62,893 bases of DNA from Bacillota bacterium (GTDB taxonomy: Bacteria; Bacillota; Sulfobacillia; Sulfobacillales; Sulfobacillaceae), in contig JAJZZH010000147.1 of NCBI GenBank assembly GCA_021797675.1, forward strand, positions 1 to 62,893. The letters run 5' to 3'. Every line of letters begins with the position of its first letter. Position 1 is the first letter of the stretch. A program made the position numbers and the translations under genes. The notes under the pieces were generated by a model that ran no database searches, was not told the DNA's origin, and worked only from the letters and a program-made list of their open reading frames with translations. Positions 16,258 to 48,131 of this stretch are shown piece by piece.

Positions 16258-18057
16258 GTGGATTCAGCGCACATCCGAAATTTTTGCATCATTGCCCATA
16301 TTGACCATGGGAAGTCGACCCTGGCCGACAGGATTTTGGAACGCACGGGTGCGGTGGCCGAACGGAACATGGCCCCCCAGTTGTTGGATTCGATGGAACT
16401 GGAGCGGGAGCGGGGCATCACCATCAAAGCTCAGGCGGTGTGCCTGAGCTGGGAGCACTTGGGCCAGACCTACAAGCTCAACTTGATTGATACCCCCGGT
16501 CACGTGGACTTTACATACGAAGTATCGCGCGCGCTGGCAGCATGCGAGGGGGCGCTGTTGGTCATTGACGCCTCGCAGGGCATCGAAGCTCAGACCTTGG
16601 CTAACTTGTACCTGGCACTCGAACACGATCTGACGGTGGTGCCGATTATCAACAAGATCGACTTGCCGAGCGCGGATGTCGACCGCGTGCGCGAAGAACT
16701 GGTCGAAATCGGAATTGACGGTACCGAGGCACTGGCAGTGTCGGCCAAGCAGGGTATCGGCATCGATGAGGTGTTGCTGGCCATTGTCAATAGGATTCCG
16801 CCACCCGCAGGCAACTTGGAGAACCCCTTGCGGGCGCTGATTTTTGATTCGCGTTTTGACAGCTATAAAGGAGTCCTGGTGTTCGTCCGGGTGGTGGATG
16901 GACGGGTAGCCGTCGGCGACCGTATTCGGTTTATGGCCACCGAAAAAGATTTTGACGTGACCGAGGTCGGGGTCTTCCGGCCCGAGTTGACACCGGTGGA
17001 TGCGTTGGAATGCGGAGAAGTGGGGTATTTGGCGGCGCAGATCAAGACGGTGCTGGATACGCGGGTGGGCGATACGGTCACGCTGGCCCAGCGCCGAGCG
17101 CTAGCGCCGCTGGCGGGATACCGACCCGCACATCCGATGGTCTTTTCTGGCTTGTACCCGGTGGAATCGGGGGATTATGCTCGATTGCGAGAGGCCTTAG
17201 AGAAACTGAGGCTCAACGACGCCGCGCTGACCTTTGAGCCGGAGACCTCGCTGGCCTTGGGCTTTGGCTTCCGGGCGGGGTTTTTGGGCCTGTTGCACCT
17301 GGAGATCGTTCAAGAACGCCTGGAGCGCGAGTACGGCCTGACGCTGATCACGACGGCGCCCAACGTGGTCTACCAGGTTAGCCTTGCCAACGGCCAGACT
17401 CTACGGGTCGACAATCCTTCGATGATGCCGTCAGCGGGGGAAATCACCGAAATCTTGGAACCGGTGGTGGACGCCAGCATCATTACCCCGTCCGAATATA
17501 TCGGAGCCGTGATGGAACTCGCCCAGGAGCGGCGCGGTACATACCGGGAGCTTACCTATCTTGACCCCCAGCGCGCCATGCTCACCTATCGGCTGCCGCT
17601 TGGGGAAATTATGTTTGATTTCTTCGATCAATTGAAAAGCCGGACGCACGGCTACGCCTCATTAGATTATCAGCTGGTGGGCGCGGAACCGGCAGACCTG
17701 GTCAAAATGGATATTTTGCTTAATGGAGAGGCGGTCGACGCGCTGTCTAGCATCGTCCACCGCCAGCGCGCATACCTCAAAGGCAAGGCCTTGGTGGCCA
17801 GGCTTCGCGAGCTGATACCGCGTCAGCTCTTTGAAGTACCCATTCAAGCCGCCATCGGCAACAAAGTCATTGCACGGGAAACGGTCCGCGCTCTGCGCAA
17901 GGACGTCCTGGCCAAGTGTTACGGCGGAGATATTACGCGAAAGCGCAAGCTGTTGGAAAAGCAAAAGGAAGGCAAGCGGCGTATGAAATCGGTGGGTAGC
18001 GTCGAGATCCCTCAAGAGGCCTTCATGGCAATTTTAAGGGTTGAAGACGAATTGTAA
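16258..18057 (+). CDS. lepA: Elongation factor 4 (LepA)
   Basis: Ribosome-associated translational GTPase of 599 residues. GTPase motifs are AHIDHGKS (G1, near residue 12), DTPGH (G3, near 80), and NKID (G4, near 133); the C-terminal LepA-specific domain begins near residue 490 and includes the basic [17 protein letters not shown] stretch. GTG start, 8 bases after GGAGG. Followed by hemW, the usual Firmicutes order. Confidence 0.97.
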
Positions 18058-18239
18058 GCCCAGGGGAGCCATGGGCGCGGGTTCGACCGCTGGGCGTTGC
18101 GCGGACCATCGTCCTGCGTGGCGTCCGGGGAACCAGCGCGAGTCGGGGCTGGTCCGTGGTAGGTCGTCGGCGATCGCTTAACCGCCCGCAGGCCCCCAGG
18201 ACCGGTGCGCCGAGACGGCTTGACGGGAGGGGTGGTCGG

Positions 18240-19490
18240 ATGTCGCATCAAGGCCGCGATGGAGCGGCCGGCCCCAGCCAGCCCTGCCTCGAGGGTAGGG
18301 TCAACCCGCTGCGGGAGCCTGCGCTCGAGGCATGGGGGGTATACATTCATATTCCCTTTTGTCCCGTGCGTTGCACGTACTGCGACTTCCCCACCGTCCT
18401 GGTCCGCGATGAGGAGGTCACCACCGCCTATGTGGATGCGGTGATCCGCGAATGGTCAGGGGAACGTATTCCCCATCGCCCCCCACTAGCCGTGTATCTG
18501 GGAGGGGGTACGCCTTCTTTGCTAGGACCGGATGCGGTCGACCGGTTGTTGGGGGCGATTCGACAGCGCACCGGCAGCGTGGGCGCCGAAGTGACGTTGG
18601 AGGCCAACCCCGGCACGGTGGACCAAGATGACCTGAACGGATTTCGGCAGGCGGGGATTACCCGGCTTTCGATAGGCGTGCAAGCACTGCAAGACCGTTT
18701 ACTGCGGGAGATGAACCGCGGCCATGGTGTCGACGCCGTTTTGGAGACGCTTGCCGCAGCCAAGCGGGTGGGTTTTCCGACCGTCAGTATGGACGCGATC
18801 TACGGCTGGCCGGGGCAGACCTGGCGGCAGTGGCAGGAGACGGTGGAAGAATTGATACGCCTTGAGCCCGACCATGTGTCTCTCTATCAGTTGCAGGTGG
18901 AGCCCGGAACGCAACTCTATCGCAAGATTCGGCGGCACGAACTGGCGCCGCCGAACTTCGACGAGGCCGCCGACATGGCCGACTGGGCTAGCCGGCGGCT
19001 CACGCAGGCGGGTCTTGCCCGTTACGAGATTTCGAGCTTCGCACGTCCCGGCCGACACGGACGGATGAACCAGCTGTACTGGACGCTAAATCCCTATGTG
19101 GGGCTGGGGATGGCGGCGCACGCGTTTGACGGACGGCGCCGCTGGTGGAACGCCCGCTCGCTGCACGGATATCTGAACCGGGTGCGCGCCGGCCGGGACC
19201 CTGTTGCCGGAAGCGAAGAGCTCAACCGGCCGGCATTGATGCGCGAATACTGCTGGTTGGGGCTGCGACAGGTCAGCGGGCTTACCCGCCAGCGCTTTGG
19301 CCAGCGCTTTGGCGCCGACGCGCTGCCGGTGTTTCATCGCGTCTGGGAGGAACTCCGGCAAGATGGATTGATCACATGGGACGCTGAGCGCATTGCCTTG
19401 ACCGCCAGAGGGTTGGACCTGGCAAATCTGGTGATGGGCCGCCTGATCGGCGCCCCATTGGACGCGGACGGGACGGGAAAACGGGGCTAA
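18240..19490 (+). CDS. hemW: HemW-type radical SAM protein
   Basis: Radical SAM protein related to oxygen-independent coproporphyrinogen oxidase; HemW family members are thought to be heme chaperones. The C-x3-C-x2-C cluster motif lies at Cys41, Cys45 and Cys48 in IPFCPVRCTYCDF, followed by the GGTPS motif near residue 86. The protein is 416 residues from ATG 18240, chosen because GGGAGGGG lies about 8 bases upstream; a GTG at 18156 would add a basic, unconserved leader. It lies between lepA and hrcA as in other Firmicutes. HemW has the single aromatic F in the C-x-x-C-D-F context, so it is not a typical HemN. Confidence 0.93.
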   Translation: MSHQGRDGAAGPSQPCLEGRVNPLREPALEAWGVYIHIPFCPVRCTYCDFPTVLVRDEEVTTAYVDAVIREWSGERIPHRPPLAVYLGGGTPSLLGPDAVDRLLGAIRQRTGSVGAEVTLEANPGTVDQDDLNGFRQAGITRLSIGVQALQDRLLREMNRGHGVDAVLETLAAAKRVGFPTVSMDAIYGWPGQTWRQWQETVEELIRLEPDHVSLYQLQVEPGTQLYRKIRRHELAPPNFDEAADMADWASRRLTQAGLARYEISSFARPGRHGRMNQLYWTLNPYVGLGMAAHAFDGRRRWWNARSLHGYLNRVRAGRDPVAGSEELNRPALMREYCWLGLRQVSGLTRQRFGQRFGADALPVFHRVWEELRQDGLITWDAERIALTARGLDLANLVMGRLIGAPLDADGTGKRG

Positions 19491-40953: not shown

Positions 40954-42678
40954 ATGGCCGACCCCGAATATGATGCTTGGATTACGGATGTTCGCCAGGC
41001 GACGGACATCGTCGAAGTGGTTTCGCGATCGGTGGCGCTTCGCCGCCGTGGCAAGCACTACTGGGGACTTTGCCCGTTTCACACCGAAAAGACGCCTTCA
41101 TTCAGTGTCGATGCCGAACAGCAACTGTTTTATTGCTTTGGTTGCCACAGCGGAGGTACCGTTTTTACCTTCTTGATGCATCGCGAAGGCGCCGAGTTCA
41201 TCGACGTTGTCCGACGTCTAGGGGAAGAAGCGGGAATTAGCGAACCCCAACGGAGATCCCGCGAGACGGCGCACGAGTCGTTGTATGGCGTGTTGAGCTG
41301 GTGCCAGGAGTATTTTCAACGTGAGCGGGAACGCGTCGAACCGTTTTTGGCTGAACGGGCGCTGCCGTGGAGCGTGGCCGAGCGTTTTCAACTGGGGTAC
41401 GCTCCACGCGGTTGGGATGGTCTAGTGGCTTACTTGCGCGAACACGGCGTGTCCGACCGGGAGATGGTGGCGGCCGGGGTGGCGGTTGCCGGTAAGCAAG
41501 GAGGAGTGTACGACCGCTGGCGGCACCGGTTAATGTTTCCGATTTGGGACGCCCGCGGGCGTATTTGCGCGTTTGGTGGACGATCCCTGGAGCCAGGAAA
41601 AGAGCCCAAGTACTTGAATTCGCCCGAGACGGCGATTTTTCGCAAGGGCCAAATCCTCTATGGGTTGCACTTGGCGCGGCCGCGGTGGCAGGCGGGCGTG
41701 GTGCCGGTTCTGGTGGAGGGCTATTTCGATGTCGTGGCGTGTCATGCGGCCGGGCTCGAACAGACCGTAGCCACCCTGGGAACAGCCCTTGCCAGCGGAC
41801 AAGCCCGTTGGCTGGCCCGGTTTGGCTCGGAGGTGACGCTTGCCTATGATTTGGACACCGCCGGCCAAGAAGCCACCAAGCGCGCCTTCGTGATTTTGTC
41901 GGAAGTGGGTTTGAAAGTCAACTGGGCACGTTGGGACGAGGCCTGGAAAGATCCAGACGAGGCGCGCCGGGCGGGGGGCGAGGAAGCTCTGCGTGCCGCC
42001 GTGCAAGCCAACACGCCGTATCTGGCGGCGGTGGCCGAAACGCTTCACGGTGCCACGCCTCGGGAAAAGGCGTACGCGGTGCAGGCAGTGCGGCCCCTGC
42101 TGATGGCGGTAAGCGATCCGGTGGAGCGAAACGGCTACCTGGAAATCATCGCTAGGAAGTTGAGAGTAGATCCTAGCATTTTAGCACAAAGCACGGACGA
42201 TTCGCAAGGGGTCAAGGATACATTCGGAAAAAATAGGCATAATATGAGGAGAACAGGGGAGAAACCGTCGCCGACCCTGCCGAGTGTTGATGTGGAGCTG
42301 TTGGCGGCGCTCCTCAAGCATCCCGAGGCCATCCCGGGCGTTCGTGCCAAAGTGCCGGAATGGCCGCGCGACCGCCACTTGGAGACGGCGCTTGATTTTA
42401 TTGTGTCTCGAGGCGCCGATGACTTGGCTGACTGGATCGACGTCGTGGAAGCCGACGCCCGCTGGCTGGTATTGGAGGCGTTGGAGTGGCAAGGCCCCGA
42501 CGGGGGCCAAGCGGCCATCGACGATTTTGTGGAGTGGATTCAACAACGCACGGAGCAGGAGCGATTACAGACGTTGCAAGAACGAGTACGACGGGGCGAA
42601 TACGCCGAGGAATTGATGGGCGAAGTCCGGGCCGCGATGGAGCGGCTTGGCCGGCAAAAAGCGCGAAAGGAGGGATAA
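40954..42678 (+). CDS. dnaG: DNA primase
   Basis: Synthesises primers at replication forks. 574 residues: CHC2 zinc finger (Cys40, His43, Cys61, Cys64), Toprim domain with [10 protein letters not shown] and [10 protein letters not shown], and a helicase-binding C-terminal domain. ATG 40954 is preferred because GGGGGGTG lies about 9 bases upstream; a TTG at 40930 is in frame without a site. Overlap-free junction with sigA of one base. Confidence 0.96.
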
Positions 42679-42679
42679 C

Positions 42680-43777
42680 GTGGTGCAGGGAAAGAAGGAC
42701 GTTCCGCAAATTGACGAAGTCAAAGACCTTATCCGCCGCGGTCAGGAGCGGGGAAAGCTTACGTACGGGGAAATTGTCGACACGTTGCAGTCGATTGAGC
42801 TGCCGCCCGAACAGATTGACAACATCTACGAGATGTTCAACGAGATGGGCATTGAACTGGTGGGCGAGCAACTGCATCCCGATGGCACCCATCCCTCTGG
42901 CAACGCCGACGAAGAAGCCGAAGAGAATATGGCCGTACCCAGCGGGGTGGCGATCGATGATCCGGTGCGGATGTATCTGAAGGAAATCGGACGGGTACGC
43001 CTATTAAATGCGGAGCAAGAGGTGGACTTGGCCAAGCGCATCGAGCAAGGCGATGAAGAGGCGCGGCGAGCGCTGGCCGAAGCCAATTTGCGTCTGGTGG
43101 TATCGATTGCGAAACGCTATGTAGGCCGTGGGATGCAGTTTTTGGACTTGATTCAAGAAGGCAATCTGGGCCTGATTAAAGCGGTCGAAAAGTTTGACTA
43201 CCGCAAGGGGTACAAGTTTAGCACCTATGCGACGTGGTGGATTCGTCAGGCGATCACCCGCGCTATCGCTGACCAGGCGCGGACGATTCGGATTCCGGTG
43301 CACATGGTGGAGACGATTAACAAGCTGATTCGTGTTCAGCGGCAATTGCTGCAGGAATATGGACGCGATCCCCTGCCCGAGGAAATCGCCAAGGAAATGG
43401 GTATTACGGTCGAGCGCGTGCGGGAAATCCTCAAGGTGGCCCAGGAGCCGGTATCGTTGGAGACTCCGATTGGCGAGGAGGAAGACTCGCATCTGGGGGA
43501 CTTTATCGAAGATGAGGATGCGCCCGCACCGGCAGAAGCGGCCGGTTACCAACTGTTGAAGGAGCAATTGGAAGAAGTGTTGGATACGCTGACCAATCGT
43601 GAGGAAAAGGTGTTGCGCCTGCGCTTTGGACTGAACGACGGCCGAGCACGCACCTTGGAAGAGGTTGGCCAGGTGTTCGGCGTCACGCGAGAGCGCATAC
43701 GCCAGATTGAAGCCAAGGCGCTGCGCAAATTACGCCATCCCACCCGGAGCAAGAAGCTCAAGGATTATCTGGATTAA
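42680..43777 (+). CDS. sigA: Primary sigma factor SigA (RpoD)
   Basis: Vegetative sigma factor of about 365 residues. Region 1.2 ([17 protein letters not shown]), 2.3-2.4 ([22 protein letters not shown]), region 3, and 4.2 ([29 protein letters not shown]) are intact. GTG codons at 42680 and 42683 both follow AAAGGAGGG (42667-42674); either may start. dnaG-sigA is the usual Firmicutes pairing. Confidence 0.98.
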
Positions 43778-43886
43778 TAAGCGATTTCTTAGGCGGCGCT
43801 CAGACTGTTTTCAGGGAGCCGGGGTATCCTAGCCCTAGAATTCCCCGGGAGGAGTCTGTCGCTGGGGGCGCTGAGGAGGTCAAGAC

Positions 43887-45773
43887 ATCTGCGGGATAGC
43901 GGGAATGTGGCGGAAGGACGGCGGCCCGATCGACCCGAGCCAGGTCAGCGCGATGCTGGCCGTGTTGGCGCACCGGGGACCGGACGGAGAAGGACGCTTC
44001 GTTGAACACGGAATTGATCTAGGCATGCGGCGGTTGGCCGTGCGCGATGTGGAGCATGGGACGCAGCCGTACCGGTCGGAGAACGGTCAGATCGTGGCCG
44101 TTTTTAACGGAGAATTGTACAACTACCCCGCGTTGCGCAGGCATATCGAAGAGCAAGGCCACCGGGTGGCGAGCGAAACGGACGGCGAGGTCCTGGTGCA
44201 CCTGTATGAGATTTATGGCTCGGACATGCTGCCGCGCTTGCGCGGCATGTTCGCGATAGCGTTGTGGGACCGGCGCACGCAGCGGTTACTGTTGGCGCGC
44301 GATCATGTGGGCCAAAAGCCGCTTTATATGACGGAATTGGGGCAGAGCGTGGCCTTCGCGTCCGAACTGAAGGCGTTTTACGCGCTGGCGGGCTATGATC
44401 CGGCGGTGGATCCGGCTTACCTGTCCACCTATTTGGCGCACCGGTTTGTTGCCGCCCCCCACACGTTGCTCGACGGCGTAACCAAGTTGGAGCCCGGCGA
44501 AGCCATGGTGTTCCAATCCCACCACCGTCGCCAGCGCTGGCACTACTGGCAACCAACGATGGCCGAACCGTCGGCAGCCATCGAGGGGCAATCCTGGGAA
44601 CAAAGGCTGGACGGGTTGCTGAGTGAGACCGTGGCTGATCATTTGACCGCGGATGTCCCGGTTGGGGTGTTTCTCTCCGGTGGACTCGATTCGAGCCTGT
44701 TGACGGCTTTGGCGGTCAAAGCGGCGGGGCGACCGCTGGAGGCGTTTACCGCCGTGTTTCCCCGCCATTTCGAAGGCTATGACGAATCGGCATGGGCCGA
44801 ACGGGTGGCCACAGCGACGGGTGTCCGCCTCCACCGCGTCGACGTCAGCGAAACGATTACGCCAGAACGCATCAGGCAGTTGGCCGAGGTTTTGGACGAG
44901 CCAATGGCCGATCCGACCGCGTTGCCGTTGGATGGCCTGGCCCGGGCGGCCAGGCAAGTGGTCACGGTCATATTATCCGGCGAGGGCGCCGATGAAATCT
45001 TTGCCGGGTACGCGGGATATGGTGAGGTATTGAGTCTCGAGCGGATCAAAAAGATTCCCGCCGCGCTGCGGGCAACCTGGATGGCCCTGGGCTTGCCCGG
45101 AGCGGGGGCGATTCAACGCTCCTTCGGGTCCATTAGCCAACGCTACCGGGGGGTGGGATTCACCTTTGATTTTTTTGCCCAACAGGCACTGTTGCGTCCG
45201 GAGTGGCGGCAAAATGATCGCACGGGCGCCATGCAGCGCTATTGGGAACAAACCGAAACCCTGTCCGAATTGCAGGCCATGCAGGGGTTTGATGCCCGCT
45301 GGTTTCTCGCTGATGACGTCCTGGTCAAATCGGATCGCATCGGGATGCACCATAGTTTAGAAATCCGGTCACCGTTTTGCGACTATCGGGTGGTGGATTT
45401 TGCCCTGCGCACGCCGATCGCGCTTCGACGCACGCGGCGCGAGGACAAGGTGTTGTTGCGACAGGTTGCGCGGGCTCATCTCCCCGGGTCCGTGGTCCAC
45501 CGCCCCAAACAGGGTTTTCCCACGCCGCTTACCCGCCTATTGGCGGGCCCTTTGCAAACCCTGGCGTGGGACGTGCTGACCGATCCCGGGGCTGAGATTC
45601 GTCAATGGCTCTTCCCGGACCAAGTCCGAAAGGTTTTGCAAACCATGGCGCCCGACCAGCCGACCGCATCACGGCAAGTCTATGCGTTGCTGGTGCTCGA
45701 GCTGTGGCTGAAGAACGTGCGCAGCCGTGCCGCGCGCCCGGTTAATCGCGAGGCTCCTTCGATCCACGGCTAG
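43887..45773 (+). CDS. asnB: Asparagine synthase (glutamine-hydrolysing), apparent ATC start
   Basis: Transfers amide nitrogen from glutamine to aspartate. N-terminal amidotransferase domain with HRGPDGEG and FNGELYNY, and C-terminal synthase domain with PP-loop FLSGGLDSS. AsnB must begin M-C-G, since Cys2 is the nucleophile. Here the codons before the first ATG (43905) read ATC-TGC-GGG-ATA-GCG-GGA, giving CGIAG, with GAGGAGG at 43873-43879 seven bases before the ATC. An in-frame TGA at 43872-43874 and only GGA-GGT-CAA-GAC between leave no ATG, GTG or TTG. So translation probably starts at ATC 43887, or there is an ATG-to-ATC mutation or sequencing error. Starting at ATG 43905 would delete the catalytic Cys. 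Confidence 0.9.
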   Translation: MCGIAGMWRKDGGPIDPSQVSAMLAVLAHRGPDGEGRFVEHGIDLGMRRLAVRDVEHGTQPYRSENGQIVAVFNGELYNYPALRRHIEEQGHRVASETDGEVLVHLYEIYGSDMLPRLRGMFAIALWDRRTQRLLLARDHVGQKPLYMTELGQSVAFASELKAFYALAGYDPAVDPAYLSTYLAHRFVAAPHTLLDGVTKLEPGEAMVFQSHHRRQRWHYWQPTMAEPSAAIEGQSWEQRLDGLLSETVADHLTADVPVGVFLSGGLDSSLLTALAVKAAGRPLEAFTAVFPRHFEGYDESAWAERVATATGVRLHRVDVSETITPERIRQLAEVLDEPMADPTALPLDGLARAARQVVTVILSGEGADEIFAGYAGYGEVLSLERIKKIPAALRATWMALGLPGAGAIQRSFGSISQRYRGVGFTFDFFAQQALLRPEWRQNDRTGAMQRYWEQTETLSELQAMQGFDARWFLADDVLVKSDRIGMHHSLEIRSPFCDYRVVDFALRTPIALRRTRREDKVLLRQVARAHLPGSVVHRPKQGFPTPLTRLLAGPLQTLAWDVLTDPGAEIRQWLFPDQVRKVLQTMAPDQPTASRQVYALLVLELWLKNVRSRAARPVNREAPSIHG

Positions 45774-46101: not shown

Positions 46102-46695
46102 TTACAGGTCGAGGAGGCGAAGGATGGCGTCAGTTTGCGCAAGGTTGCGATAGACGCCGCGAGTGGCGATGGTCACGGTCTGACTACCGGGTTTTTTGAC
46201 GCCGCGCAGAGTCATGCAGAGATGCTCAGCCTTGACCGCTACCAAGACGCCTTGCGGTTCGAGGGCTTGGTCGAGCGCGTCGGCAATTTGATTGGTCATC
46301 CGCTCTTGGATCTGTGGCCGCTTGGCCACGGCATCGACCAATCTGGCCAACTTTGACAGGCCGGTCACCACGCCGGCCCGCGGCTGGTAGGCGACGTGGG
46401 CTTGTCCGTGAAACGGCAGCAAGTGGTGTTCGCAGATCGAGTGGAACGTGATGTCCTTGACCAAGACGAGTTCATCATGATCGACGTGAAACCGGGTGGT
46501 CAAGACGGATTCCAGGTCCTGGCCGAGGCCGGCGGTAATTTCTTCATAAAAGGCGGCAACCCGCCGCGGCGTTTCCATCAACCCTTCGCGGTCGGGGTTC
46601 TCGCCGATGGCTTCCAAGATGGAGCGGACGGCTAATTCGATTTGCCGCTTATCGACTACGCGGCGGCCGAGCTTCGGTTGGATCTTAGAATTCAT
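46102..46695 (-). CDS. folE: GTP cyclohydrolase I
   Basis: First enzyme of tetrahydrofolate synthesis. 197 residues; zinc ligands in CEHHLLPF and EHLCMTLRG, and the [23 protein letters not shown] helix. Start ATG 46695 with AAGAGG seven bases upstream; longer frame upstream overlaps the decayed MFS gene and is not used. Confidence 0.97.
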
Positions 46696-46771
46696 CCCAG
46701 GCCTCTTTCTAGTGGCATCGTCTGCCAAATACCCATCGTCCCGATCGCCGATCCGAATGCTGGCCGACGGC

Positions 46772-48131
46772 TTAGCATTCGGTGGCCTCGTTGGCTTTCG
46801 CGAGAACCATCGCCGCCGGTGGAGTACGCACCGCGGAGGCGATGGCCGCGAGCACGAGGGCCGCGATGGAGCGATAAAACGCAATGTGCAGTCCGCCCAG
46901 GGAAGCGCGCTAGCGCGTAGGCCGGGAGATGACGGCTGCCCACGAAAATGGCGTACGCGAGTCCGCGGGGAATACGCGTCGACGCCATGATCAAGGCAAG
47001 AGCGAACGAGAGGACCATCCCCGGGTTGGCGAACGTTCTTAACATGCCGGAAGCGATGCCATACTCACCGGTAGGCGTGGCTAGCATCACGGCCATGTTG
47101 TTAGCAGGGAAGAAGCCGCCTGCGCCCAGGTCGACCGTAGCGGGCGTCGCGGGGCCCAGCCGACCGGCGAGGCGGCCAGCAACGGGTGCGGCTAGGGCAC
47201 CAACCAGGTAACCGGGTACGAGCAACAATGAAGTGTCGAACGGAGTGAGGTTGCGTACCCCCTGCAGGTACATGATGATCAAGAAGAGCACGGCAAATCC
47301 TCCCAGGCCCTGCAAGAACGCGGCCAGCAGGGAAAAGGTCGGCGTTCGGACCCGAAAGAGACTGAGGCGCAGCAATGGTTCGCGCTGTCGGGACTCGACC
47401 CGGACAAACACCAACAGGCCGACTGCTCCCAGTCCGCCCAGGAGTGCGATGGTGTCCGACCAGCCTTGAGACGCCAAACGGGTCGTCGCCAGCAACCAGC
47501 AGGACACGCCTGAGGCCAAGGTTACCAGGCCCCAGACGTCAAACTGGTGGCTCCGGCGGGGGATGTCCGCGTGAAAGGCATGTCCGGCCAAACCAAGGGC
47601 CACGGCGCCGATCGGCAGATTGATGAAAAAAATCCACCGCCAGGAGAAATAGGTGGTAAGGAATCCGCCCAGCAAAATGCCCAAAATCGCGGCGAGATTC
47701 CACCCGATGGCGTTATCGCCATAGGTCGGGCCTCGTTGCTGGGGAGAAAACACATCGGCGATCACCGCCCCGCTGTTGGCGCCGATCAGGCCTCCCCCGA
47801 TGCCCTGCACAATCCGTGACAAGACGAGGCCGAGCCATGCGGTTGATATGCCGCATACGGAGGATCCGGCAAGAAAGACGACGAATCCGGCCGTGTACAT
47901 ACGCACGCGCCCAAAAACATCGCCCAGTCGCCCTACTTGCGTCGCAAGCAGAGTCATCGTCAACAGGTAGCCCATCACAATCCAGACCGCGCTGGTGAGT
48001 GAGGTGTGCAGCGTGCGCATCATGGTGGGCAGGGCCAAGACGACGATGGTGCTGTCAACGGCCGTGATCAGCACCCCGATCACAATCACGGCAAGCGCCC
48101 AATTGGGGCGAGTGGTGGTGGGATGAGACAT
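46772..48131 (-). pseudogene. DHA2-type MFS transporter, frameshifted and internally deleted
   Basis: The N-terminal two-thirds is a good drug/H+ antiporter: ITAVDSTIVVLALP, GRLGDVFGRVRMY and GWNLAAILGILLGGFL are family motifs. At VDLGAGGFFPANNM (near 47120) roughly 40 expected residues, about one and a half helices, are missing. Near 46900 the frame shifts: the correct ending [18 protein letters not shown] up to a TAA at 46772-46774 is in another frame. Both lesions point to a recent pseudogene, unless the sequence is in error. Confidence 0.75.

Follow-up and report, generated by a model that had tools for sequence, protein, structure and literature searches.

To our knowledge, very few genes in bacteria have been shown to keep a conserved start codon outside ATG, GTG and TTG. 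The initiation factor gene infC starts at AUU in E. coli, at ATC in Streptomyces and at AUA in S. aureus (PMC5472188, PMC13009471), and it resembles the asnB gene described here in pairing an AUH start with a strong Shine-Dalgarno (SD) sequence, but differs in being autoregulated through its own product, a loop that asnB does not have. In Streptomyces, sigR starts at GTC behind a long SD that contains an in-frame GTG, and its repression by IF3 is proven; the GTG within the SD had been wrongly annotated as the start (PMC5472188). Like sigR, asnB has a conserved non-canonical start and a long SD, and in many of the asnB relatives studied here an in-frame GTG within the SD misleads annotation. 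The third position varies in both genes, with GTC and GTT found in sigR and ATC and ATT in asnB. The two differ in that sigR encodes a stress regulator for which IF3 repression has been demonstrated, whereas asnB is a biosynthetic enzyme gene with an AUC codon, for which we infer IF3 control. Other described cases are ordinary genes whose AUH starts lower yield, a likeness to what we propose for asnB, namely pcnB of E. coli, in which AUU limits expression, and ccpN (AUA) and cvfC1 (AUU) of S. aureus, where a genome-wide retapamulin map lists four non-canonical sites (PMC13009471); these are, however, different genes from other lineages, and their codon is not AUC. Non-canonical starts detected by proteomics in one bacterium, Deinococcus deserti, are the subject of Baudet 2010. 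A literature search, with most subscription journals outside its reach, returned no paper on such asnB or Sulfobacillus start codons, nor any that describes ACG as a conserved bacterial start.

The window analysed here comprises positions 1–62,893 of contig JAJZZH010000147.1, from a draft genome of 4.06 Mb in 242 contigs that its named relatives place in the Sulfobacillaceae. The features around the start of asnB are as follows.

42647..43777, + strand: sigma-70-like gene (RpoD/SigA), named from its sequence, upstream of asnB and ending 109 nt before the ATC
43872..43874, + strand: TGA stop, in frame and upstream of the ATC, read directly from the sequence
43873..43879, + strand: SD sequence GAGGAGG, 7 nt before the ATC
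43887..43889, + strand: ATC start codon of asnB, assigned by position, SD spacing and family conservation
43890..43892, + strand: TGC, encoding Cys2, the glutaminase nucleophile after fMet removal
43905..43907, + strand: first in-frame ATG of asnB, the standard gene-finder choice, with which Cys2 is lost
43887..45773, + strand: asnB, glutamine-hydrolysing asparagine synthase of 628 aa (PF00733, PF13537; TIGR01536)

Positions 43872–43907 read TGA GGA GGT CAA GAC ATC TGC GGG ATA GCG GGA ATG, with the 7-nt spacer TCAAGAC (43880–43886) separating the SD from the ATC. From the TGA to the ATC, the asnB frame contains no ATG, GTG or TTG, and the ATC is the sole start-like codon with a properly spaced SD ahead of the conserved AsnB protein. 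These readings agree with the original prediction, which had placed the CGIAG peptide 5' of the first ATG and the ATC 7 nt behind GAGGAGG, with no canonical codon between stop and start; the in-frame TGA that it described is also present, but not at its distance of 13 bases, as 15 nt separate the first base of the stop from the ATC, with 12 nt intervening. The expected annotation error was reproduced as well, since ORF calling limited to ATG, GTG and TTG began asnB at 43905, omitting CGIAG and with it the catalytic Cys. We regard the ATC at 43887 as the start of asnB with near certainty. RNA structure at the start showed nothing special (z of 0.75 and −1.25 in the window and −0.52 in one relative), and no consensus sigma-70 promoter was found in the 109-nt gap before the ATC.

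Read from the ATC, asnB encodes (M)CGIAGMWRKDGG..., a complete asparagine synthase of the glutamine-hydrolysing type. It scores 433 bits against TIGR01536 (cut-off 267) in a match that starts at residue 2, and from residue 2 onward it can be aligned with a solved AsnB-like amidotransferase. The Cys2 nucleophile and both the glutaminase and synthase domains are present, Cys2 being retained only through the ATC start. Elsewhere in the window, the C-terminus of an MFS-type transporter ORF (46692–48131, − strand) is no longer membrane-protein-like and overlaps a FolE-like ORF, possibly owing to a frameshift or assembly fault, and in a HemW-like ORF (18045–19487, + strand) the closest canonical codon in frame lies 25 codons ahead of the point where the conserved region begins.

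The start is conserved across this family of acid-loving bacteria. A match to AsnB was found in 60 of the 61 genomes searched, and among 33 Sulfobacillaceae asnB genes from 32 genomes the start codon is ATC in 22, ATT in two and ATG in nine. ATC or ATT, the same peptide and an SD at the right spacing thus occur together in 24 of 33 family genes, an arrangement that is far from chance; this family-wide conservation strongly supports the prediction that asnB begins at ATC. ATC is found in a genome of the same genus (85% protein identity), in the complete genome of Sulfobacillus thermotolerans Kr1 (L036) and in the isolate S. harzensis (L057). One genome, G006, carries two asnB copies, one with ATC and one with ATG; its ATC-started first copy (L009/L042) reads CAIAG for CGIAG, and the second combines ATG with CGIAG. 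The sister-family asnB (G035) starts at GTG, and the order-level outgroups included in the tree start at ATG.

On a maximum-likelihood tree of the AsnB protein, built without the first residue, start codons change six times, compared with 13.1 changes when labels are shuffled. The base of the ingroup has ATC, two ingroup clades carry ATG and ATT appears twice, making it likely on the basis of the tree that ATC was the ancestral asnB start and that ATG was regained in two clades. The 24 non-AUG genes use ATC 22 times, ATT twice and ATA never at the start, and at the fourth codon (Ile4) they use ATA 15 times, ATC seven times and ATT twice. The preference for ATC at the start over Ile4 (22 of 24 against 7 of 24) gives a Fisher P of 1.7e-5, which serves as a guide only, the rows being related.

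These patterns bear on the possibility that the AUC start is nearly neutral, a strong SD being sufficient and the codon having been inherited without regulatory meaning. The return of two clades to ATG would suit this explanation, as would the alike SD energies before ATC and ATG starts (−14.4 and −12.8 kcal/mol, respectively; P 0.23). However, the start stays ATC along long branches even as the Ile codon nearby changes, ATA is never used, and known non-canonical starts cut yield (PMC13009471, PMC5472188), so that we consider neutrality unlikely, albeit worth keeping in mind. The same energies do not support the idea of a stronger SD compensating for ATC, as the difference from ATG-start relatives is not significant.

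We favour instead an AUC-started, weakly translated and IF3-repressed asnB, selected for low AsnB levels, and assign this reading as a whole a probability of about 0.65. The ordinary fMet initiator tRNA would start asnB at AUC 43887, positioned by the strong SD, and fMet removal would then expose Cys as the N-terminal nucleophile of AsnB. Ribosomes would initiate less strongly at AUC than at AUG, and IF3 would discriminate against this codon, so that AsnB would remain scarce, with its synthesis following IF3 activity, as for infC. In Sulfobacillaceae asnB the AUC would be of old standing and under selection, and the gene would be one of a few there that start at AUC, AUU, ACG or CUG. The start and its conservation are read from sequence comparison; we infer fMet at AUC, low yield, IF3 repression and selection for low expression. 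The gene displays the sequence features of the IF3-controlled class, namely a start other than ATG, GTG or TTG, conservation of the odd codon, and a strong or extended SD. By analogy with the described genes, the ATC start likely lowers AsnB yield, and IF3 is rather probably the relevant control. The effect of IF3 would then be expected to be repression and not the dependence on IF3 originally proposed, and the conserved AUC is probably a built-in brake on enzyme amount.

Outside the family, a phylum-wide search of about 297 genomes for GAGG followed by ATY-TGY-GGN-ATH-GYN-GGN, in which GAGG was obligatory and other SDs would be missed, found no genuine case; two other matches to the pattern were internal or non-coding. 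Six Syntrophomonadaceae drafts (L071–L076), a biased sample found with a query containing ICGIAGMW, have ATC before the CGIAG of asnB; two of the six have no canonical start up to the upstream stop, and the other four have a GTG 9 nt upstream that overlaps an SD-like stretch.

Within Sulfobacillaceae, asnB is accompanied by other genes with near-cognate starts. Every one of the 33 genomes read starts infC at ATT or ATC. A strict SD-based scan of 800 kb from each of two genomes (G023 and G016), comprising 368 ortholog pairs, returned asnB as the clearest outlier. Three further genes in this pair of genomes have near-cognate codons at SD spacing and lack a workable canonical start: tsaD (ACG/ACG), rsfS (ATC/ATT) and an alpha/beta hydrolase gene (ATT/ATT). 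A CrcB-like gene (pair A360/B100; regions L221–L260) with CTG/CTG at SD spacing is less sure; in one of the two genomes it has no canonical start upstream. Names were taken from Pfam, except for CrcB, which was named by eye. Shared near-cognate starts therefore amount to four or five of 368 ortholog pairs, as judged manually with one method.

Of 27 family genomes, 15 start rsfS at ACG, the source genome among them (L391, G000:C105, near 53180; the others are L336, L337, L341, L344, L346, L348, L350–L353, L356, L359, L392 and L393), and 14 of these 15 calls were also made by a mechanical rule, with one (L344) made by eye. The other family genomes have ATG in the same column (six), ATG one codon earlier (two) or ATC/ATT (four). 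Outside the family the picture for rsfS is mixed, with CTG or ACG perhaps serving as the start in one order-level genus. For tsaD (loci L301–L305, L310, L312 and L326), ACG was read in five g8 genomes and CTG in two g3 genomes; the mechanical rule favoured another codon in L305 and erred in two genomes with ATG starts by preferring an ACG further upstream. The tsaD gene of the sister-family genome G035 perhaps starts at ATC. In each of the five g8 genomes read, the hydrolase gene (L361–L365) has an ATT start; its relatives have ATG or GTG in that column or close to it. The statement in the original prediction that AUC starts are very rare consequently needs changing, given the AUC, AUU, ACG and CUG starts of several other Sulfobacillaceae genes.

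Control genes within these genomes begin conventionally. The glmS gene, whose product likewise needs Cys2, starts at ATG or GTG in every genome with a readable start, the one mechanical 'ATC' call adjoining a real ATG, and the AsnB paralogues examined also start at ATG or GTG, indicating that the odd start belongs to asnB itself and not to Met-Cys proteins generally. This observation also weighs on the suggestion that AUC avoids the overlapping AUGUG of Met-Cys proteins and thereby prevents out-of-frame GUG initiation. Cys2 does force AUGUGY, and in E. coli overlaps of this kind can be initiated in two frames (PMC9841429), but E. coli asnB starts at AUG only, glmS and the AsnB paralogues studied here retain ATGTG or GTGTG, and the non-AUG starts of rsfS, tsaD, infC and the hydrolase gene are not followed by TG, leaving this suggestion very improbable.

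At least 11 of the 24 non-AUG asnB genes have no ATG, GTG or TTG from the upstream stop to the ATC or ATT, and in several of them a TGA lies at −9. In most of the remaining genes a GTG (once ATG) lies in frame at −9, within or right at the SD, and wherever such an upstream GTG or ATG occurs in these genes it either overlaps the SD or has no SD of its own. A mechanical SD-spacing score favours ATC or ATT over every canonical codon in all 24 genes. A start at such an upstream codon, producing a short propeptide (for example MVAI-CGIAG) that is cut before Cys as in some PurF enzymes, would account for the GTG or ATG found 9 nt before the ATC in many relatives; it is contradicted by the genes, the source asnB included, whose upstream stop is not followed by any canonical start before the ATC or ATT, and by the −9 GTG itself, which falls within or right at the SD that serves the ATC and has no good SD of its own. 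We hold it to be even less probable than avoidance of AUGUG, and reject it for the genomes with close stops.

An error of sequencing or assembly, with ATG as the true codon, had been named originally as what would overturn the assignment, in the form of raw reads with ATG at 43887 or of relatives with ATG at this position and an error here; both objections fail. Although the source genome is a draft of 242 contigs, ATC was found in 22 of the 33 family genes read, among them that of G001 at 85% identity and 20 other family genes, one of them in a complete genome; because ATC recurs in independent genomes, we consider such an error excluded for practical purposes.

The initiation machinery appears ordinary. 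The initiator tRNAs found carry CAT as anticodon, with the GGG/CCC stem that is usual for them, the 16S P-site and decoding bases checked in five genes are those of E. coli (neighbouring position 1335 is C for T), the anti-SD CCTCC is intact in the 16S of relatives, and IF3 is well conserved. We accordingly rejected an altered 16S P-site, anti-SD or IF3, since the positions checked are unchanged. A dedicated initiator tRNA with a GAU anticodon, for which nothing more than the AUC codon itself speaks, has a negligible likelihood, as the initiator tRNAs found carry CAT, GAT pattern matches are at chance level and those checked are not tRNAs, and the ACG, CTG and ATT starts would require still other tRNAs. 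With no sign of recoded or relaxed initiation, the simplest reading is that particular genes have weak starts while IF3 discriminates as normal.

For the family as a whole, it is conceivable, although we lean slightly against it, that AUC, AUU, ACG and CUG are stable starts in about one in 100 Sulfobacillaceae genes, with ACG prevailing in rsfS, and that the genes for IF3, RsfS, TsaD and AsnB are co-tuned by IF3 activity; that several genes form an IF3-tuned set is speculative. Such proteins are shortened by gene finders that accept only ATG, GTG and TTG, and in AsnB the catalytic Cys is lost. The asnB start offers a testable system for whether the level of IF3 sets a regulon. If true, a family-wide AUC start in an enzyme gene, together with ACG as the start of rsfS and tsaD, would make initiation codons of this kind a routine tool of some lineages.
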